Below are positions 17,752 to 58,954 of a DNA stretch of 64,000 bases, piece after piece; position 1 is the first letter of the stretch, and every line of letters begins with the position of its first letter. Made by a program: the position numbers and the translations under genes. Origin of the DNA: Gammaproteobacteria bacterium (GTDB lineage Bacteria > Pseudomonadota > Gammaproteobacteria > Ga0077554 > Ga007554); NCBI GenBank assembly GCA_040183005.1, contig JAMPIW010000002.1, forward strand, positions 434,001 to 498,000. Direction: 5' to 3'. Below the pieces are notes generated by a model. That model was not told the origin of the DNA, made no database searches, and saw only the letters and a list, made by a program, of their open reading frames with translations.

Positions 17752-17919
17752 CGTTCCAACATAATAAAAAGCGGTTAGCCACGGAGCTCGCAGAGAAAAA
17801 CCATGCCCCCCGCAATCACCTCTGTGTTCTCTGTGGCGTACATCTGCGGTTTTCAGGGTAAACTGAGGGCAACCCAGGGTGTGCCGCAATGCGCCCTTCA
17901 GCGAGATCTTGAACCGGCT

Positions 17920-19682: not shown

Positions 19683-20221
19683 GATTTTTCAAGCTCCTGG
19701 ACCAGGGGCAAAATCTTGCTTTGCAAGGCATCCACCGAAACAGGGCCGATATGCTTGTAGCGTATGATCCCTTTTTTATCAATCACATAGGTTTCTGGGG
19801 CGCCATACACACCATAGTCGATACCCACCCGCCCATCACCATCGACGGCACTTAACACATAAGGATTACCAAACTGCGCCAACCAGTTCACGCTGTCTTC
19901 GCGCTTATCCTTATAGTTCAGTCCGTAGATCGGCACCAGACCCGCGCGCGACAACTCCATCAAGACTGGGTGCTCCTGGCGGCACGATACGCACCAGGAC
20001 GCCCACACATTCAACAGCCATACCTTGCCCCGCGCGTCCGCTGGTGTAAAAAACTGGTTCGGCTCGTGTAACTGGGTCAGACGAAAATCCGGCGCGGCCT
20101 TGTTGATAAGCGGCGAGGGCAAGGCTTCACGGGTACCTTCCGGTTGCCGCAGTGTTACAAAGAAAAAACCCACCACGACGAGAAAAACGCCCAGAGGAAG
20201 AAGAAAACGCAACCGGAACAT
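19679..20221 (-). CDS. ccmG: Thiol:disulfide interchange protein CcmG (DsbE)
   Basis: This periplasmic thioredoxin keeps apocytochrome cysteines reduced. The 180-residue protein has an N-terminal membrane anchor (6-24) and the active site WASWCVSC (Cys77, Cys80). GVYGAPETYVID provides the cis-Pro and GAPE signature of DsbE. Its last bases overlap ccmH and its start touches the stop of ccmF (one-base overlap). Confidence 0.95.
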   Translation of the reverse strand: MFRLRFLLPLGVFLVVVGFFFVTLRQPEGTREALPSPLINKAAPDFRLTQLHEPNQFFTPADARGKVWLLNVWASWCVSCRQEHPVLMELSRAGLVPIYGLNYKDKREDSVNWLAQFGNPYVLSAVDGDGRVGIDYGVYGAPETYVIDKKGIIRYKHIGPVSVDALQSKILPLVQELEKS

Positions 20222-22251: not shown

Positions 22252-22294
22252 TGTGTGCCCTCTTTGTGGAATGGGGACGGGTTCAAACCCGTCC

Positions 22295-22762
22295 CTACTG
22301 AGTAATTAACGTGGCGCCCGTCGGAGTGGCGGCGTTCTTGGCCTTGCCTTTGTCGAGGGCGTCTTTCACCTCAGGCGGCATATAGTTTTCATCATGCTTG
22401 GCCAGCACTTCCTCGGCGTAAAACACCCCGTCCGGGTTAAGCCGCCCCTGGGCCACAACTCCCTGACCCTCGCGGAACAGATCGGGGAGAATGCCTTTAT
22501 AGGTGACCGTTATCTCCTTATGCATATCCGTCACTACAAAATGCACTGTCAGGCCATCGTCCTCGCGCTTGAGGCTACCCTTCTCCACCAGGCCGCCCAA
22601 GCGAAAGTTGCGCCCCTCAGGGGATTCCTTGGAGAATACCTGGGTAGGGCTGAAGAAGAACACCATGTTGTCATTGAAAGCGTTCAGCACCAGCGCGGCC
22701 GCACCGCCTAACCCGGCAAGACCTGCGACGATAAACGCCAGTCTTTTATGTCTGGATTTCAT
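22295..22762 (-). CDS. ccmE: Haem chaperone CcmE
   Basis: CcmE carries haem in the periplasm from CcmC to CcmF, bound covalently through a His. The 155-residue protein has an N-terminal membrane anchor (7-27), an OB-fold domain and the haem-binding HDENY motif (His123, Tyr127). The Met-Pro-Pro-Glu-Val sequence that follows is typical. It overlaps ccmD by 17 bases. The His form (not the Cys variant of archaea and some deltaproteobacteria) is present. Confidence 0.96.
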
Positions 22763-22934
22763 TTTTAACCTCTGTAGAAGTCACACGACTCATACGACCC
22801 AGGCGCTGCAATAAAGTTCGTTTTCTGCGCAGCAGCAGCACCACTTCGACAATCAGGCACAGCGCGGTGACACCATAGGAACCCCACACATAGAAGCCAT
22901 AACCACCCATGGCAAAGAATTCGGACAAATTCAT
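22746..22934 (-). CDS. ccmD: Haem exporter protein CcmD
   Basis: CcmD is a small single-pass membrane protein that stabilises CcmABC and releases holo-CcmE. The 62-residue product starts [21 protein letters not shown], the family signature, then has one membrane helix and a basic cytoplasmic tail. The start at 22934 overlaps the end of ccmC by four bases. A longer frame in the same phase upstream is only a shadow of ccmC. Confidence 0.92.
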
Positions 22935-23683
22935 TTCGCGCCCCTCATCGCTTCGGCCACCCACTCGGCGTGGCGCTCCCGCTCCAGAATCTCGCAGCGT
23001 ACGCGCATCAACGCCACGGCGATGGTGTACATCCAAAACGCCATTGCCATCAACATCATGGCAATGAACATGCTGGCCGCCATGGTAGGACCTTTGGTAG
23101 CCGTTATGGATGACCCCTGGTGCAGGGTATTCCACCATTTCACGGAAAAGTAGATGATCGGGATATTGACTACCCCCACCAACGCCAGCACGGCGCTGGC
23201 GCGGGCGGCGCGGCGCGGCTCGTCAATCGCAGCATACAGGGACATAAAGCCGATATACAGGAACAGCAGGATCAGCTCGGAGGTGAGGCGCGCATCCCAT
23301 ACCCACCACGCACCCCACATGGGCTTACCCCACAATGAGCCGGTCCACAGCGCCAGAAAGGTGAACATCGCGCCCGTGGGCGCCAGCGCGGAGGCCATCA
23401 TCGACGACAGCCGCGAGTTCAGCACCAGCCCCATGCCGGCATAGCCGGCCATCACCACATAAATAAACATGGACATCCACGCCGCCGGCACATGGATGAA
23501 CATGATGCGGTAGGCCTCGCCCTGCTGATAATCGGCGGGCGCCACAAAAAAGCTGAAATACAGCCCCGGCAGGGTAAACAGCAGCGCCGCGACGGCAAAC
23601 CACGGGATCATCTTGCCGGCCAACGGGTAAAAGGCCTGCGGCGAGGAATATTTGAACCAATTGATTTTTTTAGCCATAAACAA
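22931..23683 (-). CDS. ccmC: Haem exporter protein CcmC
   Basis: CcmC attaches haem to CcmE. The 250-residue protein has six membrane segments and the WWD domain WGAWWVWDARLTSELILLF near residue 125, flanked by His residues (FIHVPAAWMS and NTLHQGSSI) that ligate haem. Length and motif match the family. The start lies eight bases after ccmB. Confidence 0.97.
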   Translation of the reverse strand: MFMAKKINWFKYSSPQAFYPLAGKMIPWFAVAALLFTLPGLYFSFFVAPADYQQGEAYRIMFIHVPAAWMSMFIYVVMAGYAGMGLVLNSRLSSMMASALAPTGAMFTFLALWTGSLWGKPMWGAWWVWDARLTSELILLFLYIGFMSLYAAIDEPRRAARASAVLALVGVVNIPIIYFSVKWWNTLHQGSSITATKGPTMAASMFIAMMLMAMAFWMYTIAVALMRVRCEILERERHAEWVAEAMRGAK

Positions 23684-23691
23684 TTAAACCA

Positions 23692-24369
23692 TTATTCCAT
23701 CGAAATACGCAGTGCCGCAGAAGCGGCCCACGGCGCCAGAATCAGGGCGCCCAGCAAAAACGCGCCCAGCAGCGACAAATGCGCCTGTGCGCCCAAGCCG
23801 GACATGCTCGCATCCACCGCGCCCGCGCCGAAAATCAGCACTGGAATATACAACGGCAATACCAGCAGTGAAACCAGCACCCCGCCGCCGCGCACCCCCA
23901 GCGTCAGTGCAGCGCCGATGGCACCGATCAGGCTAAGCACCGGCGTTCCCACCAGCAGCGACAGGGCAAGGACCAGCAGCCCTTCCGGCGGCAAATCATA
24001 CTGCACCCCCAGCAAGGGCGCTATCAATACCAGCGGCAACCCGGACACCAGCCAGTGGGCGAACACCTTGCCCAGCACCAACACCGGCAAAGGCTGTGGC
24101 GTCAGCAGCATCTGCTCCAGCGTCCCGTCCCGGTAGTCACTGTAAAACATGCGCTCCAGCGCCAGCATGGAGGCCAGCAACGCCGCCACCCATACCACGC
24201 CGGGGGCTATGATGCGCAGCGTCGCCATTTCCGGCCCCACGCCGAGGGGAAAAAGACTCACCACTATGACGAAAAAAAACAGAGTGGTCAAAACATCCGC
24301 ACGACGGCGCAGCGCGAGGGTGATGTCGCGCGCCACGATGCAACGGAATGCGGCAGTCAGGCTAGTCAT
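23692..24369 (-). CDS. ccmB: Haem exporter protein CcmB
   Basis: CcmB is the membrane subunit of the CcmAB ABC transporter that drives release of haem-loaded CcmE. The 225-residue protein has six membrane segments and the family landmarks FFVIVVSLFPLGVGPE and LLASMLALERMFYSDYRDGTLEQ. It is 12 bases downstream of ccmA. Confidence 0.95.
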   Translation of the reverse strand: MTSLTAAFRCIVARDITLALRRRADVLTTLFFFVIVVSLFPLGVGPEMATLRIIAPGVVWVAALLASMLALERMFYSDYRDGTLEQMLLTPQPLPVLVLGKVFAHWLVSGLPLVLIAPLLGVQYDLPPEGLLVLALSLLVGTPVLSLIGAIGAALTLGVRGGGVLVSLLVLPLYIPVLIFGAGAVDASMSGLGAQAHLSLLGAFLLGALILAPWAASAALRISME

Positions 24370-24381
24370 TGTTGTTAGTTA

Positions 24382-25002
24382 TTATTGTAAGCCCAAATGG
24401 ATGCGCCGCACGGTACCGGCCGGGATATCCACCTCCTGATGGGTTGTGAGAATCACCATACCCCCATTATGCAGATGCTGGCTTAACAGATCCTGAACGA
24501 CAGCCACCGCCGCCACATCGAGCGCAGTGAAGGGTTCGTCCAGAATCCACAGCCGGGTGTTGCACAACAACAGGCGGGCCAGCGCAACGCGGCGTTTCTG
24601 CCCCTGGGACAACACCTTGGCGGGCAGGTCTTCACGTCCGCCCAACCCCAGCTTGCCCAAGGCGGCAACCACTTTGTCCTCCGGGGCATCCACGCCCGCC
24701 AGCTCGGCGGAGATGCGCAGATTCTCCAGCGCAGTCAATTCCTCCTTGATGCCGCCCAAGTGCCCGAGATAGGTCACATCCTTGAAATAGTCTTCGCGCA
24801 GGCTGCGGATGCTCTCGCCGTTCCAGCGGATCTCCCCCTCGGCGGGAGCGGTCAGGCCGCATACCATGCGCAACAGGCTGGTTTTGCCGCTGCCATTGGC
24901 GCCATGCACGTGCAGCAGCTCGCCGGGTTGCAGGGAGAAGCTCATGCCCGCGAACAGGCGGCGGTCGCCGCGCACACATTCAAGATTGGAAACTTCCAGC
25001 AC
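24382..25002 (-). CDS. ccmA: Haem exporter ATP-binding protein CcmA
   Basis: CcmA is the ATPase of the CcmABCD complex and the first gene of the operon. The 206-residue protein has Walker A (GANGSGKT, 34-41), the signature LSQGQKRR and Walker B (LWILDEPFTALD). The length is typical. ATG 25002 is followed immediately by the canonical MLEVSNLEC start. Confidence 0.96.
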   Translation of the reverse strand: MLEVSNLECVRGDRRLFAGMSFSLQPGELLHVHGANGSGKTSLLRMVCGLTAPAEGEIRWNGESIRSLREDYFKDVTYLGHLGGIKEELTALENLRISAELAGVDAPEDKVVAALGKLGLGGREDLPAKVLSQGQKRRVALARLLLCNTRLWILDEPFTALDVAAVAVVQDLLSQHLHNGGMVILTTHQEVDIPAGTVRRIHLGLQ

Positions 25003-33808: not shown

Positions 33809-33842
33809 CCATTTGGCGTAAGAACCTGTTTCGAGGCATGAC

Positions 33843-35407: not shown

Positions 35408-35426
35408 CTAGCCAGCCTGCTAGAAT

Positions 35427-35460: not shown

Positions 35461-35518
35461 GTTTACTAAGCCGTCGTTCAAAATTAATCTGTACATTTAG
35501 AATGGTGGGAACGGCATA

Positions 35519-35571: not shown

Positions 35572-35623
35572 AATACTCCTGCATCCTCCAGGAAAGATTT
35601 CACCCGCAAACAAGCATTGGCAC

Positions 35624-36094: not shown

Positions 36095-36097
36095 TCC

Positions 36098-43761: not shown

Positions 43762-44472
43762 TCACCGCACTGGCGTCACCCGGATTGGTGCGCCCTCTTG
43801 CTGTTTTTGCTCCGGCATATCCACCGCAGGGCTGTTGCGATCAGTCCATTCCTTGCCTTTTCTGGCAAGGAAGTCGGCCTCCTCCTTGGGCAATGGCCCG
43901 CGCGCCAGTGCGTACTCCCATTCTCCCAACGCCGCACGCGCCTTACGCACCAGCGGATCTTCAGGAGGGGAAAGATGGATATAGGTACGCATCGCCCCCA
44001 GCGCACCCCGCAAGTCACCCATTTCCTCCAGGGTAACGGCAAGCCCCCAGTAGGCGTTAGCCTGATAGGGGCGCAAATTGGTCGCCGTGTTAAAAAAACT
44101 CTCGGCCTCTTTGTAGCGTTTCAGCCCGAACAAGGCAAACCCCATATTGACATGGGCATCGACCAGATTTGGTGAGAGCTCCAGGACGCGGTGCAAGGCG
44201 GTTGCGGCGTGTTCATACTGTTTTGCATGCAGCATCACCACCGCCTGCTCGAAGCGCATCTTGATCTGGGCCATGCGCGCCTGCTTTGCATGCTGTTGCG
44301 GATCTTTTTTGGGATCTGCAACCACTTGTGTCTCGCTCATTTTCGCCGGAGGCACGAAAGAGGGATTACGTGTTACACCCGTAATGAGGGCCACCATCCC
44401 CATCACCAGCAGCAATGAGACAACAGATGTCGCAATCTCAGTCGGATCACGTTCAAGAGCAACTGGATTCAT
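43762..44472 (-). CDS. Membrane-anchored TPR protein
   Basis: The 236-residue protein has one N-terminal membrane helix (about 15-34) and then TPRs (FEQAVVMLHAKQYEHAATALHRVLELSP, VNMGFALFGLKRYKEAESFFNTA, YWGLAVTLEEMGDLRGALGAMRTYI). It overlaps the CcsA gene by four bases. By analogy with CcmI, a TPR protein next to a haem ligase could present apocytochromes to it; this is inference from position and fold. Confidence 0.8.
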   Translation of the reverse strand: MNPVALERDPTEIATSVVSLLLVMGMVALITGVTRNPSFVPPAKMSETQVVADPKKDPQQHAKQARMAQIKMRFEQAVVMLHAKQYEHAATALHRVLELSPNLVDAHVNMGFALFGLKRYKEAESFFNTATNLRPYQANAYWGLAVTLEEMGDLRGALGAMRTYIHLSPPEDPLVRKARAALGEWEYALARGPLPKEEADFLARKGKEWTDRNSPAVDMPEQKQQEGAPIRVTPVR

Positions 44473-45344
44473 ATCACGCCCTTATGCGCGGCTTCACTGT
44501 AAAACGGCGTGCCAAAATAGGTAATGAAGGCAAACACGAACACGGCGATGATCGCCATTGCTCCAACACGGATTGGAATGCGGTAGGTCAGGCGCGCGTG
44601 GATGCTTGCGCCGAGCAACAGCCAGTTCAGAAACGACGAGGTTTCCAGCGCGTCCCACGCCCAATACCGCCCCCACGCGTCCTGCGCCCATACCGCACCT
44701 GCGGTGAGCATCAAACTGTGAAAGATGAACGCGAGCAGCATGAAACGCCACGCCAAGCCATCCAACACTTCGTCAGCAGGCATCTGTCGAAACCACCCGG
44801 CAAAGCGCTGGGCGTGGCGCAGCAGAATAACACCGGCTAGCGCCGTGCCCACCAGACTCAATGACAGAAAAATCTTGCCCAGCCCTACATGCGCCCATAA
44901 CCAGTCATTGTGATAGGTGGGAGGCAGCGGCGTATCAATGGGCTGCAAGGCCAACACCCAGCCCCCCAGCACCCCCATCAGCGGCAAAGCCACCACAGCA
45001 CTGGGCCGCAATACCGGCATGCGCCAATAAACGAGCGTAAACACCAGTCCCAGACTGAACAACTGGCTCATCAGTAATTCGAACAAATTGACGAACGGAC
45101 CATGCCCGATACGCACCCAGCGCTCCGCCAGCGCTATCGCGATTAGCGCCACCCCTGTGGCGACAATCACAAGTACCAGCTTTTCGTGCGAACGGCTCAC
45201 CGCCATTGCACCAACCGCTCGCCCTTGGGTTCTGATTACGCCTGCAACGGCAATAAAAGTGGCCAGCCCATAGGCAGTAAGACCCGCCCATAGCCAGGGA
45301 AGCTCCGTGGCCTGGCCAATGACATTTTCGATAATGTCACTCAT
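44469..45344 (-). CDS. ccsA: System II cytochrome c assembly protein CcsA/ResC-like
   Basis: The 291-residue inner-membrane protein has about eight helices and the CcsA-type WWD domain WGRYWAWDALETSSFLNWL near residue 235, with His residues before and after it for haem handling. ATG 45344 is preceded by a strong GGGAGGGG site; the longer frame to 45497 lies inside ResB. It overlaps ResB and the TPR gene by four bases each. With ResB it forms the CcsBA haem export/ligation unit. Confidence 0.9.
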   Translation of the reverse strand: MSDIIENVIGQATELPWLWAGLTAYGLATFIAVAGVIRTQGRAVGAMAVSRSHEKLVLVIVATGVALIAIALAERWVRIGHGPFVNLFELLMSQLFSLGLVFTLVYWRMPVLRPSAVVALPLMGVLGGWVLALQPIDTPLPPTYHNDWLWAHVGLGKIFLSLSLVGTALAGVILLRHAQRFAGWFRQMPADEVLDGLAWRFMLLAFIFHSLMLTAGAVWAQDAWGRYWAWDALETSSFLNWLLLGASIHARLTYRIPIRVGAMAIIAVFVFAFITYFGTPFYSEAAHKGVI

Positions 45345-46384
45345 AATCCCCTCCCACCAGAAATCTCCGATGCAGATACGTGTTTCAAGCTCGCCCCTGC
45401 GGATGGTGCCGGAGTGTGCTGTAGTCGAGCACCAAACCTGCCCCAGAAGTGTGAGCCCAAGCCGATTATCGCCACCATCGCCGAGGCAAACAGCCAATGC
45501 AGTGTGGGATCATAAAATACCTTGTAGCCCATCCAGCTTGTCAAACGCTCATAACGCAGCTTGCCACCCTCCAATTGGACCGTCTCTCCCGGCTGCAATT
45601 CAACCCGCCGTACCCCGGAGTTGACCACCAGCACGCCGCTGGCGCCTTTGCCGTCCAGCACCCAGGGGGCGTCCTCGCGCAATCCGGTTTTGAGGCGTAA
45701 CCAGAGTTTAATCTCCTTGCCACCTGGCGGCGTCCAGGTGCTATCTTGTTTGTATTCAAAAAGTGGGTAAGAGGGCATATGGACCGTACCGGTGATAGCC
45801 TCCCTCGGCGCCGTATCAGGCAACCACGTCAGCACCGGGGCGAAGCCTTTGTTGAATGTGGTGTAAAAGCGGTATCCCTCCAGCACCAGGGGGCGATCAT
45901 CGCCCACCACTTTGGTCACCACCCCGCCACGCCCATCCGGCACCAGCACCTGGCTGTGCGTCAGGCCGCGCACCATCCCTGCCGCATATTCCACTGTATA
46001 TGAACCCTGCACAAAGGCTATTTTATCCAATGCACCGGAGTGAAAGGGACCCTTGTTCACCTCGCTCAACTCCTGAGGGGAAAATGCGCCGCCCTCAGTA
46101 ATTTCCAGTTGCGCGTCCAGGTGAGTCAACCGTCCGACGCCCGCCAACACAATGATGGAAAGCAAACCGATATGAAAAATCAACAGGCCGGCACGGCGGT
46201 TAATGCGTGGGTTGGTGGCAATGGCGGCCAGCAAATTCACCGCCAGGAACGCCAAGGGAACGACCAGCACCCACACCGGGGTGCTCACCGGGTTGTTGTA
46301 ACTCAACGCCGCGCCTAAGGCCAGCAGCACCATGCCCAGCAATGCCAAGCGGACGGAACCCAGCGCGCGAACCATAGGGATCAT
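45341..46384 (-). CDS. resB: ResB/CcsB-like cytochrome c biogenesis protein
   Basis: The 347-residue protein has membrane helices near the N-terminus (about 10-28, 36-55 and 70-86), a large periplasmic domain and a C-terminal helix (WLFASAMVAIIGLGSHFWG). NPRINRRAGLLIFHIGLLSII carries a conserved His. This is the ResB layout. It overlaps the 11-haem cytochrome gene by four bases and CcsA by four. A full System I (ccm) is present elsewhere in the window, so this System II pair is probably dedicated to the neighbouring multihaem proteins. Confidence 0.88.
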   Translation of the reverse strand: MIPMVRALGSVRLALLGMVLLALGAALSYNNPVSTPVWVLVVPLAFLAVNLLAAIATNPRINRRAGLLIFHIGLLSIIVLAGVGRLTHLDAQLEITEGGAFSPQELSEVNKGPFHSGALDKIAFVQGSYTVEYAAGMVRGLTHSQVLVPDGRGGVVTKVVGDDRPLVLEGYRFYTTFNKGFAPVLTWLPDTAPREAITGTVHMPSYPLFEYKQDSTWTPPGGKEIKLWLRLKTGLREDAPWVLDGKGASGVLVVNSGVRRVELQPGETVQLEGGKLRYERLTSWMGYKVFYDPTLHWLFASAMVAIIGLGSHFWGRFGARLQHTPAPSAGASLKHVSASEISGGRGL

Positions 46385-49086
46385 GGCAGGTTGCTACACG
46401 TCTCACCGCCACTACCGTTCATCCAACTGATCCCGCGCGCACCATTGCCAGGCATACCCGCGGAGCCACAGTTTTGCGGCGTCCACTCGCCACTGCGCCT
46501 GAAATTCACCACTTTCAGCACGGAACCGTTGTAATACGGCCCATTGTAAAAACGTGCCGTGGTGTTGTTGCGCATCTGGGTGCCTGGCGGCAGGCCTGCC
46601 TCAAGGCCAACATCATTCAGGTTGACCAGGAAGTTCTTGTTCTTCCAGCCGTGCGGCACGGCGATATGGCAATACGTACAACGGAAATTCTGTACCACCT
46701 GCGCGTGGCCGGTGTGCAGATTGACACGCTGGACATTCAAACAACCGAAACCCGACGCATCATTTGGATTTCTGGCAAAACCGCTCTTGAGCGTCTGATT
46801 GTCAGTTAACAGGCCCTGCGGGAACTTCTTGCCGTAATAATCATAATTGTGGCACTTGAAACACAGGTGATCCTGCTTGTTCTCGCCAGTCTGGTCGTCC
46901 CAGGGGCCTTTCAGGAGGAAGTCACTGTTGGAGCCATGTGGCCCCCACACATTGCCCTGCTCGCCACCATCGGGCACTACTGTGCCCGGGGCGGTGGTCG
47001 AACCATGGCAATCGGTGCAATACATGGTCTGTATGCCCACGCCTGCATTGAAGGGTTCGCGCCAGATATTCGGGCTGTCCACCCGCCTCACATCGATGGT
47101 ACGCCCGGTATCCTTCAATGCCGGATGCCAGGAACGGTGGTTATCGCTCTGAAAATCTACCGTGTAACCCTGTCCGGCAGCCGGACCCTTGTATGCCCCG
47201 CTGGGAGTGGGTGACGTACCTTCTCCTTTGTGATCGTCCGGCGACTGGTACTCCATACCCATATTGGTGTATTGAATCATCGCATTGGTGCCCGGCGGAG
47301 TCCCTCCCGAGAAAGAACCCAGCATGGGTGGCTTATCAAAACCATAATTGGAATGACACTTCATGCAGATCTGATATTCGCGCGTCACATACGGTGCGTT
47401 TACATCGGTACTGCCACCCACACCCGGGTCACCGCGCTTGACCACGAAGGTCGTCGGCTCGCTGCCAAACGCGGTGCTCGGCCAGCCGCCCGGCTCCACG
47501 CCTGTGATGCCGCGCAGCACACCGGAAGCGATGTTGGTGTGGTGGCGCTCGGGATTGTTGGCGATCTGCGCCGCAGTGTGATTATGCGTACCCTCCGTAT
47601 CGGGAATCGATGTGTCGGCGTTGAAAATACGATTTTTGGTCACGCGGTGCGGGTTATGGCAGTCCGTGCATTCCGCGTGGCGGTTTTGCAGGCCGCCCAC
47701 CTCGCCCTTCTTGTTCACCCTGCTCGCCTTGCCCATGTTGGCTGGGGACTCGACAAAATCCTTGCCGCCACCAGGACCATTAGCCTGCTCATCGGTGGCA
47801 GTACCGATATCATGTCTTTCACGTCCGGCAGGCTGGTCGCGGCTGGAAATCGGCATGTGGCGCGCCATGGTGGTGAAGTCGGTCTTGATGTCCGGCACCT
47901 CGAAACCAGGTTTCACTCCCTGACCCTGTAAAGTACCACCATCCGTGGAATGACAGGCATAGCAGGTTTCCTCGATGGCCGGGTTGCCACCCTGCTTGAA
48001 TTTGGTGCCATCCGCACCCACCATCGTCGGACCATCCGTGCCTTCACGCAGCAGGCGGCGCGACCCCTGCACGGTATGCGGGTCGTGACAGTTCAGACAC
48101 GCAGCCTGCCACACTGGCAGATTTTTGGGGAAATCGCGCAACTTGCCCGCCGCGTCCGCATAACGCTCATTGGCCACCGCCGGATGGGCATGGGCCGAAC
48201 CCACCCAGCCCGCCTTGTCATGGCAGCCCAGGCAGATGATGTCGCTCTTTTCGTTGAAGCGCTTGTCAGTCGGCGGCTGTTGCTGGAGGCGGTTGACGCG
48301 CAAGAACTTGATATTGTCCCCGGACGTATCGCGCAGATGGGGATCGTGGCAACTCACACACTCAACCTTGTTGTCCTCCAACGGCAGGGTGGGCTTGACC
48401 CCCGGCGTGCGAGTGCCGAGGTGCGCCACCATCGCCGGGTCATACAGCTCACCATCGCGTGCCGCCTGGGCACTGTCGAAGGTAAACGAGATAGGATGGT
48501 CATTGGTCAGGTCCGTGCCTAGACGGCGTGTGTAGCCGGTATGCTGTCCACGTCCCTCGGGGATCTTGTCATCCTGCCCAACGCCGGGGCCGGTAAAGTC
48601 AATAATCGGCTTTTCAACGCGGTTCAGTACATTGACCGAACCCAGCGCTAATGTGCCGTCGTGGCACGACAGGCACAACTTGGACTTGCCGCCCGGCTGG
48701 CCGAGATCGGTCGCATCGATGGATGACGAGGAATACGGAATATAGGTTGCACCCGACAGCTTGCGGTTCCACAGCGGGGTCTTGGGGGCGAGGGTAGCAC
48801 CATGGGGGGTATGGCAGAAGGCGCAGATCTGGGACTCGTTGGTGGCATAGGCATCGCGCGTTATGCCTTCCGGCAATACAGGTATCACCGTCGACGAGAA
48901 ATTATGTTTGGTATTGCGTATATCAGCCACGCGCTCGGCCTGGACACTCACAGCGCCCAGCAGCAACGCACCCGCGCATAGCAGCATCGCGGCAACCGCG
49001 CGCGGCTTAATAACGTGAGCCTTCCATAACCCTCGCCCTTCGGGCAGCCTTTGGCTGTCCCGTTTTGTTTCCGGCAAAACGGTCAT
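46381..49086 (-). CDS. Undecahaem c-type cytochrome with OmcE-like N-terminal domain
   Basis: The 901-residue exported protein has a signal segment (about 28-50) and eleven CXXCH motifs starting at residues 88, 138, 243, 285, 330, 375, 473, 574, 690, 742 and 803. The first four sites repeat the motif order of the tetrahaem protein of this cluster: NTKHN, CHTPHG, CLSCHDGT, DLTNDHP, CHDPH, FLR, CxxCH. The remaining 600 residues carry seven further haems and non-motif cysteines (782, 873, 897). It is probably surface-exposed and acts in electron transfer. It overlaps the NHL gene and resB by four bases each. Confidence 0.92.
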   Translation of the reverse strand: MTVLPETKRDSQRLPEGRGLWKAHVIKPRAVAAMLLCAGALLLGAVSVQAERVADIRNTKHNFSSTVIPVLPEGITRDAYATNESQICAFCHTPHGATLAPKTPLWNRKLSGATYIPYSSSSIDATDLGQPGGKSKLCLSCHDGTLALGSVNVLNRVEKPIIDFTGPGVGQDDKIPEGRGQHTGYTRRLGTDLTNDHPISFTFDSAQAARDGELYDPAMVAHLGTRTPGVKPTLPLEDNKVECVSCHDPHLRDTSGDNIKFLRVNRLQQQPPTDKRFNEKSDIICLGCHDKAGWVGSAHAHPAVANERYADAAGKLRDFPKNLPVWQAACLNCHDPHTVQGSRRLLREGTDGPTMVGADGTKFKQGGNPAIEETCYACHSTDGGTLQGQGVKPGFEVPDIKTDFTTMARHMPISSRDQPAGRERHDIGTATDEQANGPGGGKDFVESPANMGKASRVNKKGEVGGLQNRHAECTDCHNPHRVTKNRIFNADTSIPDTEGTHNHTAAQIANNPERHHTNIASGVLRGITGVEPGGWPSTAFGSEPTTFVVKRGDPGVGGSTDVNAPYVTREYQICMKCHSNYGFDKPPMLGSFSGGTPPGTNAMIQYTNMGMEYQSPDDHKGEGTSPTPSGAYKGPAAGQGYTVDFQSDNHRSWHPALKDTGRTIDVRRVDSPNIWREPFNAGVGIQTMYCTDCHGSTTAPGTVVPDGGEQGNVWGPHGSNSDFLLKGPWDDQTGENKQDHLCFKCHNYDYYGKKFPQGLLTDNQTLKSGFARNPNDASGFGCLNVQRVNLHTGHAQVVQNFRCTYCHIAVPHGWKNKNFLVNLNDVGLEAGLPPGTQMRNNTTARFYNGPYYNGSVLKVVNFRRSGEWTPQNCGSAGMPGNGARGISWMNGSGGETCSNLP

Positions 49087-50165
49087 GCCCCTCCCCCCAG
49101 ATACTCAAAGATCACAATACGCCCGTTAAACATATCCGCGACATATATCCGCCGGCGCTGATCGGTCCAGACCCCCGCAGGCAAATAAAATTCCCCCACT
49201 CCGCTGCCCCCCCCACCGATCGGCAGCAGCAGCTCACCCTCACCATTAAATACTAGCAAATGATCATAATAAGATTCCACGACATACACATTACCGGCAC
49301 CATCAACCGCCACCCCCTTGGGACGCGTCATGTCGCCGAGAAACAGGCCGCGCCTGCCAAACATGCGCAGCACCTTGCCGTCCGGGGCAAGCACCTGGAT
49401 GCGCGCGTTCAGCGTGTCCGCAACATACAGCTTGCCATTGGCAAACGTCAGGTGGGTCGGTGAATTAAACCCACTCTGGCCCTCCTGGCGCTCGCCGCTG
49501 CCAAAGGTGTCCAGAAGATTCCCTGCGTCATCGAATACCTTGATCCGATGCTCATGGGTATCCGCCACATAGATTCTGCCCTGCACCGCATCGCGCGTCA
49601 GCCCCGTCGGGTGTTTCAATACACCTTTGCCGAAACTGCCGACAGGGACACCCTCTCTATTGAGACGCACCACCCTGCCCAGCGAGGAGTCGGCCACCAG
49701 GATCTCACCGTTCGCACCTAACGCAATACCAATGGGCGCTTCGAAACGGGTACCCTCCAGCGCCATCTCCCACACATGGAGCTTACCCACCTTCTCATCG
49801 AACACGTAAACCGCCTGGCGACTGACGTCGGTGACATAAATCCTGCCGCCGTCATCCACCACACCGGCCTGCGGACGCTGCAATATCACGGCCTGGCGCT
49901 GGTCCGAAAACAACCCGACCAGCCACTTCAGCCCCGTCAACCCAAGGTCGCCAATGCCTCCGCCACCCTCGGTCTTTATATTCTCCTCACCCGTCAATTC
50001 GCCAACATAGCGGTAACGGGGCGTCTCCGGAGCTGGGGGCCACACAGTGGCTTGCGCGCCCTCTGCCTGATAGCGCAACACCGAACGCGACTCGGCGCAG
50101 CCCGTCAACAGGGCAAAGGCCATCAGCACGACACCAATACCACAGCGCTGCAAGCTGATCGCCAT
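49083..50165 (-). CDS. NHL-repeat beta-propeller lipoprotein
   Basis: The 360-residue protein has a lipoprotein signal (ALLTGCAES, Cys23) and six NHL-type blades (RIYVTDVSRQAVYVFD, EILVADSSLGRVVRLN, RIYVADTHEHRIKVFD, KLYVADTLNARIQVL, NVYVVESYYDHLLVFN, RIYVADMFNGRIVIFE). NHL propellers recur next to multihaem cytochrome genes in metal-reducing bacteria, where they are thought to help assembly or bind surface partners. It overlaps the 11-haem gene by four bases and the next NHL gene by one. Confidence 0.88.
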   Translation of the reverse strand: MAISLQRCGIGVVLMAFALLTGCAESRSVLRYQAEGAQATVWPPAPETPRYRYVGELTGEENIKTEGGGGIGDLGLTGLKWLVGLFSDQRQAVILQRPQAGVVDDGGRIYVTDVSRQAVYVFDEKVGKLHVWEMALEGTRFEAPIGIALGANGEILVADSSLGRVVRLNREGVPVGSFGKGVLKHPTGLTRDAVQGRIYVADTHEHRIKVFDDAGNLLDTFGSGERQEGQSGFNSPTHLTFANGKLYVADTLNARIQVLAPDGKVLRMFGRRGLFLGDMTRPKGVAVDGAGNVYVVESYYDHLLVFNGEGELLLPIGGGGSGVGEFYLPAGVWTDQRRRIYVADMFNGRIVIFEYLGGGA

Positions 50166-51544
50166 TAGTTAGTGTTTTGGCCCTTGGTGCCAGGCGCAAC
50201 ACGCATGACCTGCACGCGCCCATTCAGGCTGTCAGCGACAAATAGCAAGCCCTCATCAAACCACAAATCGGTGACATGCCTGAATTGACCAAGACCTGAA
50301 CCAGGATGGCCGACACTCGCAGCCAATCGCCCCTGTTCATAAACCTTGATGCTGCCATCACTGAAATCGCTGACAAAGACACGGTTGTCCTGATCAACGG
50401 CTATTGCTGTGGGAAAAATTATCCCCTCCTGTGGAAGGGAGTAAGAGTATTGGCCACCCTCCCCCAATACCTGAATATGCTGCCCAACGCGCGCCGTGAC
50501 ATAAAAACCATCAGGCCCCTGTGCCATGGCTGTGATATTCAAGAATTCCCCAGGATCACCGCCGCGACCGCCCATGGAGCCGGTCAACTGGCCCATGCTG
50601 TTAAATACCAACACGTAATCATATACCCCATCCGCCACGAACACACGCCCGCTTGGCTCATCCACGGTCACGGAAACCGGACGGGTCATGTTCAGCGGAT
50701 TACTGAACGTACGCAGCAAACGGCCTTTCCGGTCAAACTGCAATACCCGGGCACCAAAGGTATCAGCGATATAAAACGACAGGTCACGGGCAACATAGAT
50801 ATCCGCCCCATCCCCCGTCATCACACCAGTCAAATTCATGACGGGCGTCAATCTGCCGGTAGCGCGCTCATACCTGAACAACATGTCCTGGCCGGCATCC
50901 ATCACAAAAAGGGTATTCCCGCGCGCCGCGACGGCGATGGGCCGCACAAAGCTCAACTCCCTCACACCCGCAATGAAATTCCCTTCCGGCCCGCCGCGAA
51001 TAATCTCCCAAGGCTGCAATAGTTCAAGGGACTGGGTGGGCGCTGCCACCACACTGGGAACTGGCGCCGGCACGGAAACCGGCGCCCCATCCTGCCCAAC
51101 CTCTTTCATTGAAGCAACCGACGGCGCTTGCTCTATCTGTCCTGGCGCAACAATGGCACTCTGAGGCGGCGGCATATTGGTTGCTTGCGCGCTCTGATCC
51201 TGAACTGGAGGCGATAATGTTGAAGCAGGCACCGGAGCCGCAGCAGCCAACTCTACTGGCGCAACCCCATCTGGAGCAATGGTTAAGGGAAGCGGTTCCG
51301 GCATTGCCGTCACGGGCACAGGTGCCAACAGAACCTCATCTTGCGGAGTTCTCTGAACAACCACCGGGGAAACGGGTGTGCCAGCAGCCTGGGCGGATTG
51401 ATCCTGATTTGCAGCCTGTGATTGATTGACTAGCGGCGCAGGCGCAGGTTTACCCAGCGAGGCACAGCCGGATTGCGCCAGCACCAGGGCTACGCCCAGC
51501 GCTGTCAGCGAAAGCCGGCAGTTTGACGGGGAACGGAGTGACAT
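50165..51544 (-). CDS. NHL-repeat beta-propeller lipoprotein, Pro/Ala-rich N-terminus
   Basis: The 459-residue protein has a lipoprotein signal (LAQSGCASLG), about 150 residues rich in Pro, Ala and Gln, then an NHL propeller (TLFVMDAGQDMLFRYE, SFYIADTFGARVLQFD, RVFVADGVYDYVLVFN, RVFVSDFSDGSIKVYE, LLFVADSLNGRVQVM). I chose ATG 51544 because the signal starts there; it overlaps the trihaem gene by 40 bases. It is a paralogue of the next gene with a long flexible spacer, suiting a protein that reaches across the periplasm or the cell surface. Confidence 0.85.
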   Translation of the reverse strand: MSLRSPSNCRLSLTALGVALVLAQSGCASLGKPAPAPLVNQSQAANQDQSAQAAGTPVSPVVVQRTPQDEVLLAPVPVTAMPEPLPLTIAPDGVAPVELAAAAPVPASTLSPPVQDQSAQATNMPPPQSAIVAPGQIEQAPSVASMKEVGQDGAPVSVPAPVPSVVAAPTQSLELLQPWEIIRGGPEGNFIAGVRELSFVRPIAVAARGNTLFVMDAGQDMLFRYERATGRLTPVMNLTGVMTGDGADIYVARDLSFYIADTFGARVLQFDRKGRLLRTFSNPLNMTRPVSVTVDEPSGRVFVADGVYDYVLVFNSMGQLTGSMGGRGGDPGEFLNITAMAQGPDGFYVTARVGQHIQVLGEGGQYSYSLPQEGIIFPTAIAVDQDNRVFVSDFSDGSIKVYEQGRLAASVGHPGSGLGQFRHVTDLWFDEGLLFVADSLNGRVQVMRVAPGTKGQNTN

Positions 51545-52119
51545 CGTCCACAATTCAGGGTTGGCGGAAAGGCGACCTTGCCGTGGCACACGCCACAATA
51601 CCGGCCTTGGATGATGGCCGCCATATTAACGGGATTGGCGCCCGCCTGCGGGAGAAAGATCAACGGATGGCAGTTGGCGCACGTCAGCCATTCCGTGTGC
51701 TGCCGATGAGGAAAACGGACATTAGGCATCGACCCGGTATTTTTAAAGATAATATCAAAATCCACCGGGAACATTTGAACTTCACCATTGAGTCCCTTGC
51801 GCGGATCAATCAAACCGTCATCAAGCGCCTTTACCCAATCGATAATGCCTTTTGAATCCCTGGGAAAATCCGCCAATGCCTCGGCAGGGTCCGCCAGCAC
51901 CTTGATCGCCGGATTGGTTGGATCACGAATACCATCTTCCGCCAGCGGCACCGCTTCGCCCTGCGTCTGAAAATGCCGCCCTTTGGACCATATCAACTCC
52001 GATGCGGCGGCACCCTCCATAAGAATCAGGCAAAGCAACGCCGCCATGACACCCCAAACACGCGCGCAGAACACCCGCCCGGCCAGACGATTGAATTGGA
52101 GATTTTTCTTTTCGCTCAT
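51505..52119 (-). CDS. c7-type trihaem cytochrome (copy C)
   Basis: The 204-residue exported protein has a signal segment (about 18-40) and CXXCH motifs at 147 (CANCH), 175 (CGVCH) and 190 (CGRCH), preceded by FPHRQHTEW whose His residues are likely distal ligands. This is the c(7)-type trihaem domain. The upstream region (AEDGIRDPTNPAIKVL, WVKALDDG) is shared with copy B, so the two are duplicates. ATG 52119 is used; the frame opens to 52149. It starts the tightly overlapping sub-operon. Confidence 0.88.
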   Translation of the reverse strand: MSEKKNLQFNRLAGRVFCARVWGVMAALLCLILMEGAAASELIWSKGRHFQTQGEAVPLAEDGIRDPTNPAIKVLADPAEALADFPRDSKGIIDWVKALDDGLIDPRKGLNGEVQMFPVDFDIIFKNTGSMPNVRFPHRQHTEWLTCANCHPLIFLPQAGANPVNMAAIIQGRYCGVCHGKVAFPPTLNCGRCHSVPRQTAGFR

Positions 52120-52290: not shown

Positions 52291-53616
52291 CTAATTCACG
52301 CCAGCGATCATTAGCGCCCGCTGAAGTTGCATCGTGGCATCCTGAAGATTGCCGATAGCAGTCGCATAATCTTTTTTGGCGGCCTGCTGTACCGCATCCC
52401 CGTGCATAGCCTTGGCCTTTTCCGACAACTCACGCATCTTTTCCACGGTAGCAGCCGGGGGATTTCTTTGCTCTATGGCAAGCGGGATCAGCTCTTCATA
52501 GCTTTTGTAGCGCGACAACTCATACTCATATTCCTCGGCAGGCGTGGCAAAGTTTTTGTCATACACCACCGTCTCTGCATTAAGCAGCACACCCAGAGCA
52601 CTCGTGACCATTCTTTGCGCGCCCATCAACACCTTGTTCGCCTCATCATAATGGCCGACATCGGCATGGCCGCGCGCTTGGACAAGGGCGTCCTGGAATT
52701 TCTTCGTGTCCAGCGTGTTTGCGGCATTCCCTTTCTTGGCCGCCAATCTGTCACGATGCTGCTTGTAAGACGACTCAAAGGTCTTTATCGCATCCAGCAG
52801 CTCGTTATAGCGGAATTTAGGATCGGTCACCTCAGGTGAATCGCTGGGCACCAGGCGCGCTGCCGCGCTCACCAGCTTGAGCGACTCGTCAACTTCCGCC
52901 TGTGCCTTGCCAATATCCCCTGCTGCCAAGGCAGTCCGCGACGCGTCAAGATGAGCACGCGCCGATCCCAGCATATCCTTGGCCTGCGCGTTGCTGCTTG
53001 CGGAGATACGCTGCGCGCCCTTGGACACATTCACCAGCATGTTGGCAAAATCAATTTTCTGCTTGACTTGGGCCTCCATGGCAGAAGGCGTGACAGGAGG
53101 AGGCGCCGAAGATCCCTCGGTTTCAGCAGGGGCTGGAGCTACCGTGGAAGACGATTCCACCGGCGCAGCTTGTCCTTTATCGACGACATGGATCTTGCCG
53201 CCCATATTTTTATGATTGCGGCATTGGTAATACACCACCCCCGGCGTGGACGCAGCCGGGGCAAATTCCACCGTTCCCCTATAGGTAAATTGACCCGTCA
53301 CCCCTTCGGTGATTGTACTGGCGCCCTGCCCAACCGGATTGTTTGAAAAATAGAAATCGTGCATAGGGCCCGTATTGACGTTAAAGGTATACTCCACCCC
53401 ACGCGTCAAAACCAGGGTTTTACCCTGTACGCCGTCGACAACCAGCCCCATCTTGCTCCCCTGCCCGTAGAACGGATGGGTGCCGTCCTTGGGCGCTGCC
53501 GTGACCACAAAATCCCTCTTTTCCGCCGCCAATGATGCGCCGTGATACCCCGCAAGACAAATCGCAAGCACTGGCGCCATAAACATACTATGTTGGTTTC
53601 TAAACTTCATCATCAT
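52291..53616 (-). CDS. Cupredoxin-like domain protein with C-terminal helical region
   Basis: The 441-residue exported protein has a signal peptide (about 1-31), a cupredoxin-like domain to about residue 148 and a long alpha-helical region after a Pro/Ala-rich linker (149-185). Candidate type 1 copper ligands are His86 (GPMHDFYF), Cys132, His135 and Met138 (YYQCRNHKNMGG). The helical part has heptad-like repeats (AKDMLGSARAHLDASRTAL). ATG 53616 starts a run of three Met codons preceded by AGGT. Standing between cytochrome genes, it may be a copper electron carrier or a scaffold. I know of no such fusion by name. Confidence 0.8.
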   Translation of the reverse strand: MMMKFRNQHSMFMAPVLAICLAGYHGASLAAEKRDFVVTAAPKDGTHPFYGQGSKMGLVVDGVQGKTLVLTRGVEYTFNVNTGPMHDFYFSNNPVGQGASTITEGVTGQFTYRGTVEFAPAASTPGVVYYQCRNHKNMGGKIHVVDKGQAAPVESSSTVAPAPAETEGSSAPPPVTPSAMEAQVKQKIDFANMLVNVSKGAQRISASSNAQAKDMLGSARAHLDASRTALAAGDIGKAQAEVDESLKLVSAAARLVPSDSPEVTDPKFRYNELLDAIKTFESSYKQHRDRLAAKKGNAANTLDTKKFQDALVQARGHADVGHYDEANKVLMGAQRMVTSALGVLLNAETVVYDKNFATPAEEYEYELSRYKSYEELIPLAIEQRNPPAATVEKMRELSEKAKAMHGDAVQQAAKKDYATAIGNLQDATMQLQRALMIAGVN

Positions 53617-53857: not shown

Positions 53858-53895
53858 ATAAGCGGCGGACCATCAGCCGACGGTCCGCCGCTTAT
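53858..53895 (-). terminator. Rho-independent-type hairpin after trihaem copy B
   Basis: ATAAGCGGCGGACC (53858-53871) pairs with GGTCCGCCGCTTAT (53882-53895), a 14-bp stem. Read on the minus strand it is followed by TGTTTTTATT. It ends three bases after the trihaem gene stop and divides the cytochrome cluster into two transcription units. Confidence 0.85.
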
Positions 53896-53897: not shown

Positions 53898-54638
53898 TCA
53901 CTTCCAGGGATTCTTAAGAGTAGTCTCGCTCAGTGGCGGCTTCCAATCATCCGGCTTGGGCTTGGAGTGACATTTCTTGCACGACTTGGTGGTAATCGGG
54001 AAGGACACCTTGCCGTGACATACGCCGCACTTCTGGCCCAACAGAATGGCGGACATGTTGATCTGGTTAGCACCCTTCTGCGGAATAAAGATCGCGGGAT
54101 GGCAGTTGGAGCAGAACAGCCACTCCGTGTGCTGCCGGTGCGGGAACACCACATCCGGCACCGAGGCCTTCACTGGGCGTACGATATCAAGATCCATCAC
54201 AAACGGTTCTGCATCGGGATCTTCACGGTCCCAGCGCGGCCTGATCTTTTTCTCATCGAGCGTCTTCACCCAGTCAACGCGATTACCGAACTCAGTTGTA
54301 GGAAGCCCCTCGAATGCCGATTTGGGTGCCGCCAGGATATGGGTGGCCTCATTTTGAGGGTCACGCAGACCGTCTTCCGCAGGCGGCAACTGAAATGCCC
54401 GTTTCTTCAGGTTGCGGTTGAAGCTATTGATATCAGCGACTTCGGCGATATGAATCACCTGCACATCGGATTGAGCAACCTCGTCGACCGGTTTGTAGCT
54501 GGGCGCGTAAGACAGGTCTTGCACCGGCACCGAGCCGTCAGGCCGGGCCACCCCTTGAGCCTGCGAACTGCATGCAGGCCCCGCCACCAGCAGCGACAGG
54601 ACAAATGTCACAAAAAGCGTTTTATTATACCGATTCAT
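53898..54638 (-). CDS. c7-type trihaem cytochrome (copy B)
   Basis: The 246-residue exported protein has a signal (about 1-27, AGPACSS) and CXXCH motifs at 176 (CSNCH), 204 (CGVCH) and 220 (CKKCH), with FPHRQHTEW before the first. It is a paralogue of copy C: the trihaem domain and the FQLPPAEDGLRDP and WVKTLDE regions correspond. It lies 19 bases after copy A and just before a strong terminator. Confidence 0.9.
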   Translation of the reverse strand: MNRYNKTLFVTFVLSLLVAGPACSSQAQGVARPDGSVPVQDLSYAPSYKPVDEVAQSDVQVIHIAEVADINSFNRNLKKRAFQLPPAEDGLRDPQNEATHILAAPKSAFEGLPTTEFGNRVDWVKTLDEKKIRPRWDREDPDAEPFVMDLDIVRPVKASVPDVVFPHRQHTEWLFCSNCHPAIFIPQKGANQINMSAILLGQKCGVCHGKVSFPITTKSCKKCHSKPKPDDWKPPLSETTLKNPWK

Positions 54639-54657: not shown

Positions 54658-55122
54658 TCACTTTTTAGGAGCAGGTGCTTGGGGCGCAGCGGGAGCGGAA
54701 GGTGCCGTCATCGGTTGATATGCGGGCGCCACCAGCGTCTGGACCGTGCTTCCGTGGAAGTGCGTCGGCGTGCCGGGGACACCGGAATGGCACATTCCGC
54801 AGTTTTCCACTGACCAGGCAATTTCGCCATTGTGGCAGGCGCCACAGAACTTGCCATCGATGATCTTGGCCATGGTTATCTTGTTGCCGCCCGCCTTGAA
54901 CTGGAAGCCCAAATCGGCATGGCACACCTTGCAGCGGAAACGGACACGGTGAAACCAGTGCGAAAAGACCGCAGGGCGCATACCTGCCGCATCAGCATAA
55001 TTATTGATCACAACATCACCATACTCCGCCTGCGCGGGCGTTGGCACCACTAAAACTGCAAGCCATGCGGCAACACCCAATACAGCGGCGCTCCACATGG
55101 AACGACTTTTGGTTACAAACAT
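54658..55122 (-). CDS. c7-type trihaem cytochrome (copy A, short)
   Basis: The 154-residue protein has a signal peptide (about 1-32, AQA-EYG) and CXXCH motifs at 64 (CKVCH), 93 (CGACH) and 108 (CGMCH). FSHWFHRVRF supplies His residues for distal ligation. It consists of little but the c7 domain, with a Pro/Ala-rich C-terminal tail after the last haem. It probably shuttles electrons in the periplasm towards the outer-membrane components encoded next to it. Confidence 0.9.
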   Translation of the reverse strand: MFVTKSRSMWSAAVLGVAAWLAVLVVPTPAQAEYGDVVINNYADAAGMRPAVFSHWFHRVRFRCKVCHADLGFQFKAGGNKITMAKIIDGKFCGACHNGEIAWSVENCGMCHSGVPGTPTHFHGSTVQTLVAPAYQPMTAPSAPAAPQAPAPKK

Positions 55123-57219: not shown

Positions 57220-58110
57220 TCACGGGCCAGCATCTTTTTCTTCATTTATCGTAACCGGCGTCTCCCTGCGCAGCCGCTCGATAAGCGCCTGCCACGCCAC
57301 CTCCCCCCGCTCCCTCGCCAGCAAGTCACGCGCGCGCGATTTTGCGGCATCAAACGCGCTTAATGCGGGCGCGACGCGCTCCTCCAGCCGCAGCACCGCC
57401 ACCCCTTGCAGCAACAACAGCGGCGCGGAGACATCACCCGGCTTCATGCCATCCAACACCTGCTGCGCCTCGCCGGCCAGCATACCTTTATGCACATATC
57501 CCAGATCCCCGCCCCGGCCCGCCGAAACGTCCCCCGAGTGCAACCGGGCCAGCTCGGCGAAATCCGCCTCCCGGCGCTGTGGCTCTGCCTGGCGCAGCCT
57601 GCCAACCAGGCGTGCCGCCTCGGCCTCCGCTGCCTTCCATGCCGCACCTGTCGCAGAAGGCTCCACCTTGAGCAGGATCAACGCAACCCTCAACCGCTCC
57701 GGCGCGGTAAACTTATCCGGATGCGCATTATAATAACCGCGCACCTCTTCCGCGCCCGGCTCCGGCACACGCCGGACATCCGCATCCAGACGCCCCAGCA
57801 GATCGTCGCCTTCCAAGCCCCGGTTCTTCGCCTCCTGCCGCAGCAGAGCACGGTCAATCAAAGCCTGCGCCACTTCGCGGCGGTAGGCGTCAACCTGCTC
57901 CTGTGAGGGCGCACCATGAAAAAACTTGCGCCGCATCCCCTCATGCAGCGCGGACTGATACTCCGCCTGCGATATCGCCTCACCCCCAACTATAGCGAAC
58001 GGCGCGACCACTCCTTGAGTCTCCTGGGGCGGCACGCCAGCAACAGCAACGCCCACCAAGGCCAGGGTTAATATCTGCAACGCCCACCAGCGCCCCCCCC
58101 TATTTCGCAT
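57220..58110 (-). CDS. PpiC/SurA-type peptidyl-prolyl isomerase
   Basis: The 296-residue protein has a signal/anchor (about 8-26), a helical SurA-like N-domain (ISQAEYQSALHEGMRRKFF) and a parvulin domain (RVALILLKVEP to GVAVLRLEERV; HSGDVSAGRGGDLGYVHKGML is the parvulin core). It is likely a periplasmic chaperone for export of the neighbouring cytochromes or barrel. It overlaps the tetrahaem gene by 11 bases. An eight-G run at the seventh codon makes a sequencing frameshift possible there. PPIases are recurrent neighbours of cytochrome-filament genes. Confidence 0.9.
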   Translation of the reverse strand: MRNRGGRWWALQILTLALVGVAVAGVPPQETQGVVAPFAIVGGEAISQAEYQSALHEGMRRKFFHGAPSQEQVDAYRREVAQALIDRALLRQEAKNRGLEGDDLLGRLDADVRRVPEPGAEEVRGYYNAHPDKFTAPERLRVALILLKVEPSATGAAWKAAEAEAARLVGRLRQAEPQRREADFAELARLHSGDVSAGRGGDLGYVHKGMLAGEAQQVLDGMKPGDVSAPLLLLQGVAVLRLEERVAPALSAFDAAKSRARDLLARERGEVAWQALIERLRRETPVTINEEKDAGP

Positions 58111-58954
58111 GACAGGTCAAACATAACGCGCTGCCCTTGGGATCAATGCGCAGGAAGGTGGGATTGTAATCGACATGCGGATCATGGCACGAGGCACACT
58201 CAACATACGGTTGCGGCTCGCCGGCATATTTGCCGCGCGTACCGGTGCGCGTGTATAGCTTCATGTCGGTCTTTTCGAAGGCCAGCGAGCCCTCCACGGG
58301 GGTGTTTACCCACCACACCCTCTCCGTGCCGACAATCGCGGTGTTGGCCTGGTTGAAATCCTTGTCAGCGCCCGGACCGGAGGGATTGGAATTGGAATAG
58401 CCCCCGCCCGCATACTGGATGCCCACCGGGTGATCATTGGTCAGATCCTTGCTCAAATTGGTGATAACGTTGGGTGGCGCGATCCTGCCGCCGACGGAGG
58501 CCGCCTGACCGCTCCAGATGCCGCTCCTGAAGCCTGGAACAACCCGCCCGGATCCAGGCTCGTTAAGCAACGAGTCCATCGCCTGGGTGCCGTCATGACA
58601 GGAAAGACAAGCCAGTGAGACTGAGCCCACCTGCTCCACATGGGCATCGAGCGTGGTGGTGCCCATCTGGTCATAGGTTTGAAAGCCATTGGGGTCGAGA
58701 TTGCGGTTCCAGATGGGAACGGCTGCGGCCTCGTTGCCACCATGGGGGGTATGGCAGAACACGCAAATCTCCCGCGTGCCGCTAAATTGGCTGGCCGCGT
58801 TCACGCCCGTGCTGCCGAGATTGTGCTTGGTGTTAAAAATGCCGGCCAGCGCGCCGCCTGCGGCAAAAAAAACCGAGCCACAGACAATAAGCAGCACTGC
58901 ACCGACAACGAGCCCTCTCCCACGCAACGAATGTTCTTGGTGATTTATTTTCAA
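58100..58954 (-). CDS. Tetrahaem c-type cytochrome, OmcE-like
   Basis: The 284-residue exported protein has a signal segment (about 14-38) and four CXXCH motifs at 64 (CVFCH), 116 (CLSCH), 253 (CASCH) and 278 (CLTCH). IFNTKHNL before the first haem, CHTPHGG, CLSCHDGT, DLTNDHPV, CHDPH and the terminal LCLTCH follow the plan of OmcE of Geobacter sulfurreducens, whose tetrahaem subunits polymerise into an extracellular filament; the match is by memory of the motifs. The start codon is TTG (58954) with GAGGGTGG upstream. It heads the cluster. Confidence 0.88.
   Translation of the reverse strand: MKINHQEHSLRGRGLVVGAVLLIVCGSVFFAAGGALAGIFNTKHNLGSTGVNAASQFSGTREICVFCHTPHGGNEAAAVPIWNRNLDPNGFQTYDQMGTTTLDAHVEQVGSVSLACLSCHDGTQAMDSLLNEPGSGRVVPGFRSGIWSGQAASVGGRIAPPNVITNLSKDLTNDHPVGIQYAGGGYSNSNPSGPGADKDFNQANTAIVGTERVWWVNTPVEGSLAFEKTDMKLYTRTGTRGKYAGEPQPYVECASCHDPHVDYNPTFLRIDPKGSALCLTCHAK

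Follow-up and report, generated by a model that had tools for sequence, protein, structure and literature searches.

A predicted System II-type cytochrome c synthase encoded with the Uet undecahaem cytochrome cluster in gammaproteobacteria possessing System I

Why the two general systems for cytochrome c maturation coexist in some bacteria is, to our knowledge, unsettled. Ligases devoted to a single cytochrome have been described in several settings. SirEFG is encoded next to one multihaem substrate in Shewanella, a System I organism (PMC6976685), and NrfEFG of Escherichia coli likewise pairs a ligase and a TPR chaperone with a single neighbouring multihaem substrate in a System I background. 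The TPRs of NrfG bind to NrfA at its C-terminal region, and a loop of six residues confers specificity; NrfEFG with NrfG, and NrfI, provide precedents both for a ligase whose gene adjoins that of its substrate and for the reading of a C-terminus by a TPR protein (PMC12285233). SirEFG and NrfEFG are built from paralogues of CcmF, CcmH and CcmI and are of System I type. NrfI and CcsA1 of Wolinella are System II-type synthases, each dedicated to one multihaem substrate, but they act on CXXCK or CX15CH motifs in a cell whose cytochromes c all mature through System II. The genes for a ResB-like, a CcsA-like and a TPR protein described here (the trio) would belong to the same known kind, the dedicated cytochrome c ligase. 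They differ from SirEFG and NrfEFG in being of System II type and in having a candidate substrate with 11 ordinary CxxCH motifs, and what is unusual is the apparent use of System II machinery in System I cells for one cytochrome system.

Multihaem cytochromes of the Uet type are thought to connect some bacteria to minerals or electrodes, and the Uet cluster of Tenderiales was reportedly described by Eddie et al. in 2022. A pangenome study of the Gallionellaceae lists the parts of the Uet (undecahaem electron transfer) complex of cathode-oxidising Tenderiales as a tetrahaem cytochrome (UetA), an isomerase (UetB), a porin (UetC), trihaem cytochromes (UetDEG), NHL proteins (UetHI) and an undecahaem cytochrome (UetJ) (PMC10734462). 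The window, that is, the whole stretch of 64,000 nucleotides of gammaproteobacterial DNA analysed here, carries an operon that matches UetA-J gene for gene in content and order, UetC and UetF being placed by position (Table 1). The ResB-CcsA-TPR genes are absent from the Uet description in PMC10734462, which names A-J only, the original Uet paper lying outside this comparison. A single minus-strand cytochrome cluster spans positions 58954 down to 43762, with the trio at its end.

Table 1. Positions of the trio, the System I operon and the Uet cluster in the window.
Feature	Position	Strand	Remarks
UetA, tetrahaem OmcE-like cytochrome	58100..58954	-	phmmer: 9yuq E=5e-26, OmcE 7tfs E=2.6e-22
UetB, SurA/PpiC-type peptidyl-prolyl isomerase	57220..58110	-	
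UetC, outer-membrane beta-barrel, 618 aa	55252..57108	-	placed by position and by tblastn against related loci carrying this gene; no Pfam match
UetD, trihaem c7	54658..55122	-	
UetE, trihaem c7	53898..54638	-	
UetF position, cupredoxin-like N-terminal region	52291..53616	-	weak match and place in cluster
UetG, trihaem c7	51505..52116	-	TIGR04257
UetH, NHL beta-propeller lipoprotein	50165..51538	-	
UetI, NHL beta-propeller lipoprotein	49083..50165	-	order as in PMC10734462
UetJ, 11 CxxCH	46381..49086	-	tail CGSAG..WM..CSNLP-COOH; proposed substrate of the trio
ResB/CcsB-like, 347 aa	45341..46384	-	4 predicted TM helices, reduced periplasmic beta domain; junction UetJ end 46381/ResB start 46384
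CcsA-like WWD protein, 291 aa, WAQDAWGRYWAWDALET	44469..45344	-	invariant His152, His249, His287; junction ResB end 45341/CcsA ATG start 45344
TPR protein, 236 aa	43762..44472	-	one N-terminal TM (13-31); candidate apocytochrome chaperone, NrfG/CcmI-like; junction CcsA end 44469/TPR start 44472
System I operon ccmABCDEFGHI, complete	17920..25002	-	
ccmA	24382-25002		
ccmB	23692-24369		
ccmC	22931-23683		
ccmD, 62 aa	about 22740-22930		
ccmE	22295-22762		
ccmF	20221-22251		
ccmG	19679-20221		
ccmH	19209-19682		
ccmI	17920-19212		
TlpA/ResA-like thioredoxin lipoprotein	17191..17889	-	adjoins ccmI

The c7-type genes of the operon encode three CxxCH motifs apiece and only UetA has four, which corrects an earlier reading. 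Since UetA and the N-terminal part of UetJ (7tfs, E=1e-20) are related to the filament-forming tetrahaem cytochrome OmcE (7tfs) and to 9yuq, the Uet cluster may form an OmcE-type cytochrome filament. Directly after UetE, within the operon, a 17-bp GC-rich hairpin is followed by T-rich sequence (53858-53895) and may uncouple expression of UetA-E from that of UetF-J and the trio. Two adjoining paralogous general porin genes (59172-60266 and 60663-61763) lie upstream of the cluster.

UetJ, ResB, CcsA and the TPR gene are joined on the minus strand by successive 4-nt overlaps, each junction reading ATGA, and the gaps from UetG onward through the TPR gene are -34, -1, -4, -4, -4 and -4. The first-pass annotation of this DNA had drawn attention to these four-base overlaps and to a full ccmABCDEFGHI operon at 17.9-25 kb; the coordinates bear out the former, and all nine genes of the latter were located. 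A TlpA-like thioredoxin gene similar to the one beside ccmI occurs between the TPR gene and ccmA in several relatives; such a thioredoxin is a candidate for the thiol-reductant partner (CcsX/ResA, acting with CcdA) of a System II synthase. No second ResB was found in the genome of the window, where the PF01578 proteins are CcmF, CcmC, the CcsA of the trio and one YpjD-like protein. In the family to which the window belongs, a YncE-like beta-propeller gene stands directly downstream of the trio (42389-43696), and in other families a lactonase-type beta-propeller gene lies between UetJ and ResB (L060:6620-8803; L064:4705-6921). Elsewhere in the window, a run of MoxR/Bat-type genes (30216-40481) encloses an IS5-type transposase gene (34602-35357) and an alkaline phosphatase gene (32142-33755).

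From its sequences and structural models, the trio appears to be a divergent cytochrome c synthase of System II type, to which haem export and ligation may be ascribed. Pfam matches exceeded the respective cut-offs for ResB (PF05140, E=6e-9, profile positions 150-263 only) and CcsA (PF01578, E=6e-24), and the third protein matched TPR_2 (E=8e-14). The score of 109.5 bits against the NCBIfam CcsB family TIGR03144 fell below the cut-off of 187.6 and counts against a dedicated synthase. CcsA was matched to the CcsBA structure 7s9y by hmmsearch (E=1.8e-11); for ResB, no meaningful sequence match was obtained among PDB entries. The AF2 model of CcsA (pLDDT 88.3) was aligned to 7s9y by VIA-align with Z 23.4 over 279 residues. 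That of ResB (pLDDT 92.9) was aligned to the CcsB half of the same structure (residues 6-344), the beta domain of CcsB being included in the comparison, with Z 9.7 over 215 residues; this value tops its list, above unrelated rows.

Three histidines of CcsA, H152, H249 and H287 (P-His1/TM-His1/P-His2), are invariant in all 80 Uet-linked sequences and align to His of 7s9y. His71 in TM3 of ResB is invariant in 78 of 78 sequences, and His115 is likewise invariant. The histidines of CcsBA act in haem export and as active-site ligands (PMC10663686). The WWD core WGRYWxWDxLET is kept in nearly all Uet-linked CcsA sequences, and in most of them WDxLETSxF replaces the canonical WDPKETWAL (Pro-Lys-Glu-Thr-Trp to x-Leu-Glu-Thr-Ser). 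A phylogeny of CcsA, a check proposed in the first-pass annotation, was obtained as a quick tree, in which the 80 Uet-linked proteins form one clade (SH-aLRT 97) on a long branch relative to 30 canonical CcsA of the same class. The trio thus resembles CcsB-CcsA and CcsBA (7s9y) in predicted fold, WWD core, P-His1 and P-His2 and both TM-His, but differs from canonical System II in its separate CcsA clade with WDxLETSxF, in its coexistence with System I and in bringing its own TPR protein. Its ResB is also short, at 347 aa (about 340 aa for the type) versus about 660-700 aa in canonical members of the class.

The TPR protein resembles NrfG and CcmI as a putative membrane-anchored periplasmic TPR protein encoded with a ligase. 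With one TM, as in NrfG, its architecture is nearer to NrfG than to CcmI, and its score against Pfam TPR_CcmH_CycH (PF23914) was 27.4 bits, the cut-off of 42 not being reached. A CcmI-like action is plausible from the architecture of an N-terminal TM followed by TPRs. A reading of conserved TPR residues as a carboxylate clamp, judged by eye, was unsupported and was dropped.

The distribution of the trio was assessed by searching 84,980 species genomes with a CcsA alignment, from which 80 loci were kept, and in an even sample of the class comprising 369 genomes. UetJ was present in 41 genomes of the even sample and Uet-type ResB in 37, all of which lie among the 41 (one of these co-occurrences rests on a partial UetJ); Uet-type ResB was found in none of the 328 genomes lacking UetJ. 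At the level of families, 19 of the 20 with UetJ carry Uet-type ResB. The corresponding Fisher p of 9e-47 overstates the association, related genomes being non-independent. The first-pass annotation had named a wide occurrence of the pair apart from multihaem neighbours as evidence that would speak against its proposal, and no such occurrence appeared in the class sample. The trio adjoins UetJ, or UetA-I where UetJ is elsewhere, in all loci with enough DNA. ResB of other types was found in about 70 further genomes of the class sample, so that System II is not rare in the class, though the Uet type is.

Most carriers of the trio also have System I. Of 50 carriers, about 47 possess CcmF, 45 of them with scores above the curated cut-off and two as strong fragments, and the trio is therefore no replacement for System I; another ResB was found in just six of the 50. 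A ccm operon comes immediately after the trio in a dozen loci, sometimes with a TlpA-like thioredoxin gene between them. The Uet cluster itself has a patchy distribution that spans numerous families of the class and reaches into Burkholderiales, and cultivable Ramlibacter strains (L088, L091, L092) are among its bearers. One family (f77) has three genomes (G133, G259 and G361) in which the trio accompanies UetA-I and ccm while UetJ is located elsewhere in the genome. At two loci of this family (L071 and L189, G259:C22), UetA-I, the trio, the thioredoxin gene and ccm form one block, with UetJ copies elsewhere. Some genomes (L229, L230) possess two full UetJ genes near each other, both with the trio-type tail described below. 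An apparent case of a chromosome relying on the trio without System I (L099, CP070838.1) was discarded, since a run of N inside the cluster marks a gapped assembly; at about 8450-8560 of that locus the run joins a membrane-protein ORF to a UetJ remnant, indicating a gapped or misjoined assembly.

One order of the class (13 genomes from 10 genera) offers a natural control. UetJ was found in 12 of its genomes and the trio in none of the 13, and the same UetA-J cluster is carried directly before ccm; at one locus (L180) ccmA begins about 200 bases after UetA-J, leaving too little space for the trio. The Uet cluster as such does not need the trio, because this order has UetA-J and ccm without it. 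The C-terminus of UetJ in the order reads CX4CH or CX5CH in nine of nine aligned sequences and CX2CH in one further sequence. Trio-linked UetJ instead ends in C-x(9-35)-C-x3-P-COOH, a form present in 70 of 70 aligned sequences versus none of the nine from genomes without the trio. Some of the 70 are the same record reached twice (the contig scan alone gave 59 of 59), and the count omits UetJ without a usable C-terminus (L183, L099 and short contig ends). One trio-linked UetJ outside the 70 (L196) ends in Leu rather than Pro. Met lies between the two cysteines in all 70 trio-type tails, nearly always as Trp-Met, and CH never occurs. In UetJ of the window the two tail cysteines are C873 and C897. 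The first tail Cys is homologous in the two forms (SGxW..C[GAT]). UetJ from the order without the trio keeps every invariant non-motif His of the trio form, and the sole cleanly differing His is that after the second tail Cys, present only in the latter.

On the UetJ tree the match between tail and trio amounts to a single split, one event, so that shared ancestry could explain it; the tree fits either loss of the trio or its primary absence in the order. As judged from these sequences, the trio tracks one form of UetJ and not multihaem cytochromes generally. The first-pass annotation had proposed that the trio matures the multihaem proteins of the cluster. This holds in so far as the trio is a conserved part of the cluster (37 of 37), but not for the cluster per se, which occurs independently (0 of 13), the trio tracking the form of the UetJ C-terminus.

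Taken together, these data suggest, with a probability of about two in three, that the trio is a dedicated System II-type synthase for the Uet cluster, above all for UetJ, working beside the general System I. ResB-CcsA would export haem and attach it to UetJ, and the membrane-anchored TPR protein would hold UetJ in its unfolded state and recognise the conserved tail at its C-terminus, in the way that NrfG recognises NrfA; the other cytochromes would stay served by the general Ccm system. The tail would then serve as the signal that the TPR protein recognises, and a disulphide may close it. The need for such a ligase does not lie in an unusual motif at one of the 11 haem sites of UetJ, all being CxxCH, and ordinary motifs within the expected range of System I weigh against a dedicated synthase. 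So do a whole order with UetA-J and ccm that lacks the trio, the single split on the UetJ tree, and the separation of UetJ from the trio in three genomes of one family. A further genome (G372) has a trio-type tail and no trio was found in it, the genome being 79% complete and about 9.6 kb of contig beyond UetJ having been checked. The tail admits another reading, in which the trio adds one further, atypical haem to the C-terminal end of UetJ, where the order without the trio has CX2/4/5CH (a twelfth haem). The site would have become C-x(9-35)-C-xxx-P with its invariant Met and would need a dedicated ligase, as with CcsA1 (CX15CH) and SirEFG (CX12NKGCH). Precedents exist for ligases dedicated to atypical motifs, the two cysteines are strictly conserved with Met between them in 70 of 70, the first Cys is homologous in both forms, the only differing His, absent from the trio form, is the one after the second Cys, and tail form matches trio presence strictly. 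We nevertheless regard this reading as unlikely. It is the CXXCH histidine that CcsBA places in position (PMC10663686), and trio-type tails have no His after the second Cys, where c-haem motifs known so far have His or Lys. The Cys spacing ranges from 9 to about 35, a disulphide is a simpler account of two conserved cysteines, and there is one evolutionary split only. Its fuller version, in which the trio makes a twelfth covalent haem at C-x(9-35)-C-xxx-P-COOH and System I serves the CX2/4/5CH of UetJ in the order without the trio, is equally unlikely. A recognition signal is favoured over a twelfth-haem site on the grounds that a His or Lys follows the second Cys in the known c-haem motifs and that the spacing of the tail varies much.

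Other readings deny the trio a dedicated role. It might be a redundant co-traveller, the Uet package having brought a working System II synthase that is unspecific or unneeded beside System I; the patchy spread of the cluster, reaching Burkholderiales, and the existence of Uet clusters without the trio beside ccm would agree with this. Frequent decay would then be expected, yet the active-site residues are invariant in about 80 genomes, nearly all with System I, and this explanation appears quite improbable. Some features would also suit a module that is no ligase but delivers haem or controls quality during Uet assembly, feeding or assisting Ccm, namely the frequent position of the trio directly beside ccm, its non-canonical WWD (WDxLETSxF versus WDPKETWAL) and its short ResB. 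All four histidines for haem export and ligation by CcsBA are invariant as in a full synthase, and a mere accessory function is in our estimation decidedly improbable. The reverse case, in which cytochromes c would be matured chiefly by the trio and ccm would be a leftover, could draw on the three of 50 carriers in which CcmF was not found. Those three assemblies are draft or gapped (L099 having its run of N within the cluster) and nearly all other carriers keep complete ccm operons, making this very improbable indeed.

The dedicated synthase favoured here would be a clean case of a System II-type synthase that occurs only with one cytochrome cluster, across 19 sampled families, and beside a complete System I. 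A defined substrate candidate in UetJ, a recognisable feature of its tail and a natural control order make dedicated haem ligation directly testable. Expression of the Uet pathway in E. coli or Shewanella on Ccm alone may be unsuccessful with trio-type UetJ and succeed with the CXnCH type, and the UetJ tail would serve as a sequence marker for the ligase that a genome may need. Another small ResB-CcsA pair, distinct from that of the trio and measuring 450 and about 254 aa (WGRYWGWDPIESWAL), was observed at a further locus (L186, G367:C285:8001-18294), where it sits between OmcE-like and UetJ-like multihaem genes; ligases beside OmcE/UetJ-like cytochromes may accordingly have arisen repeatedly.
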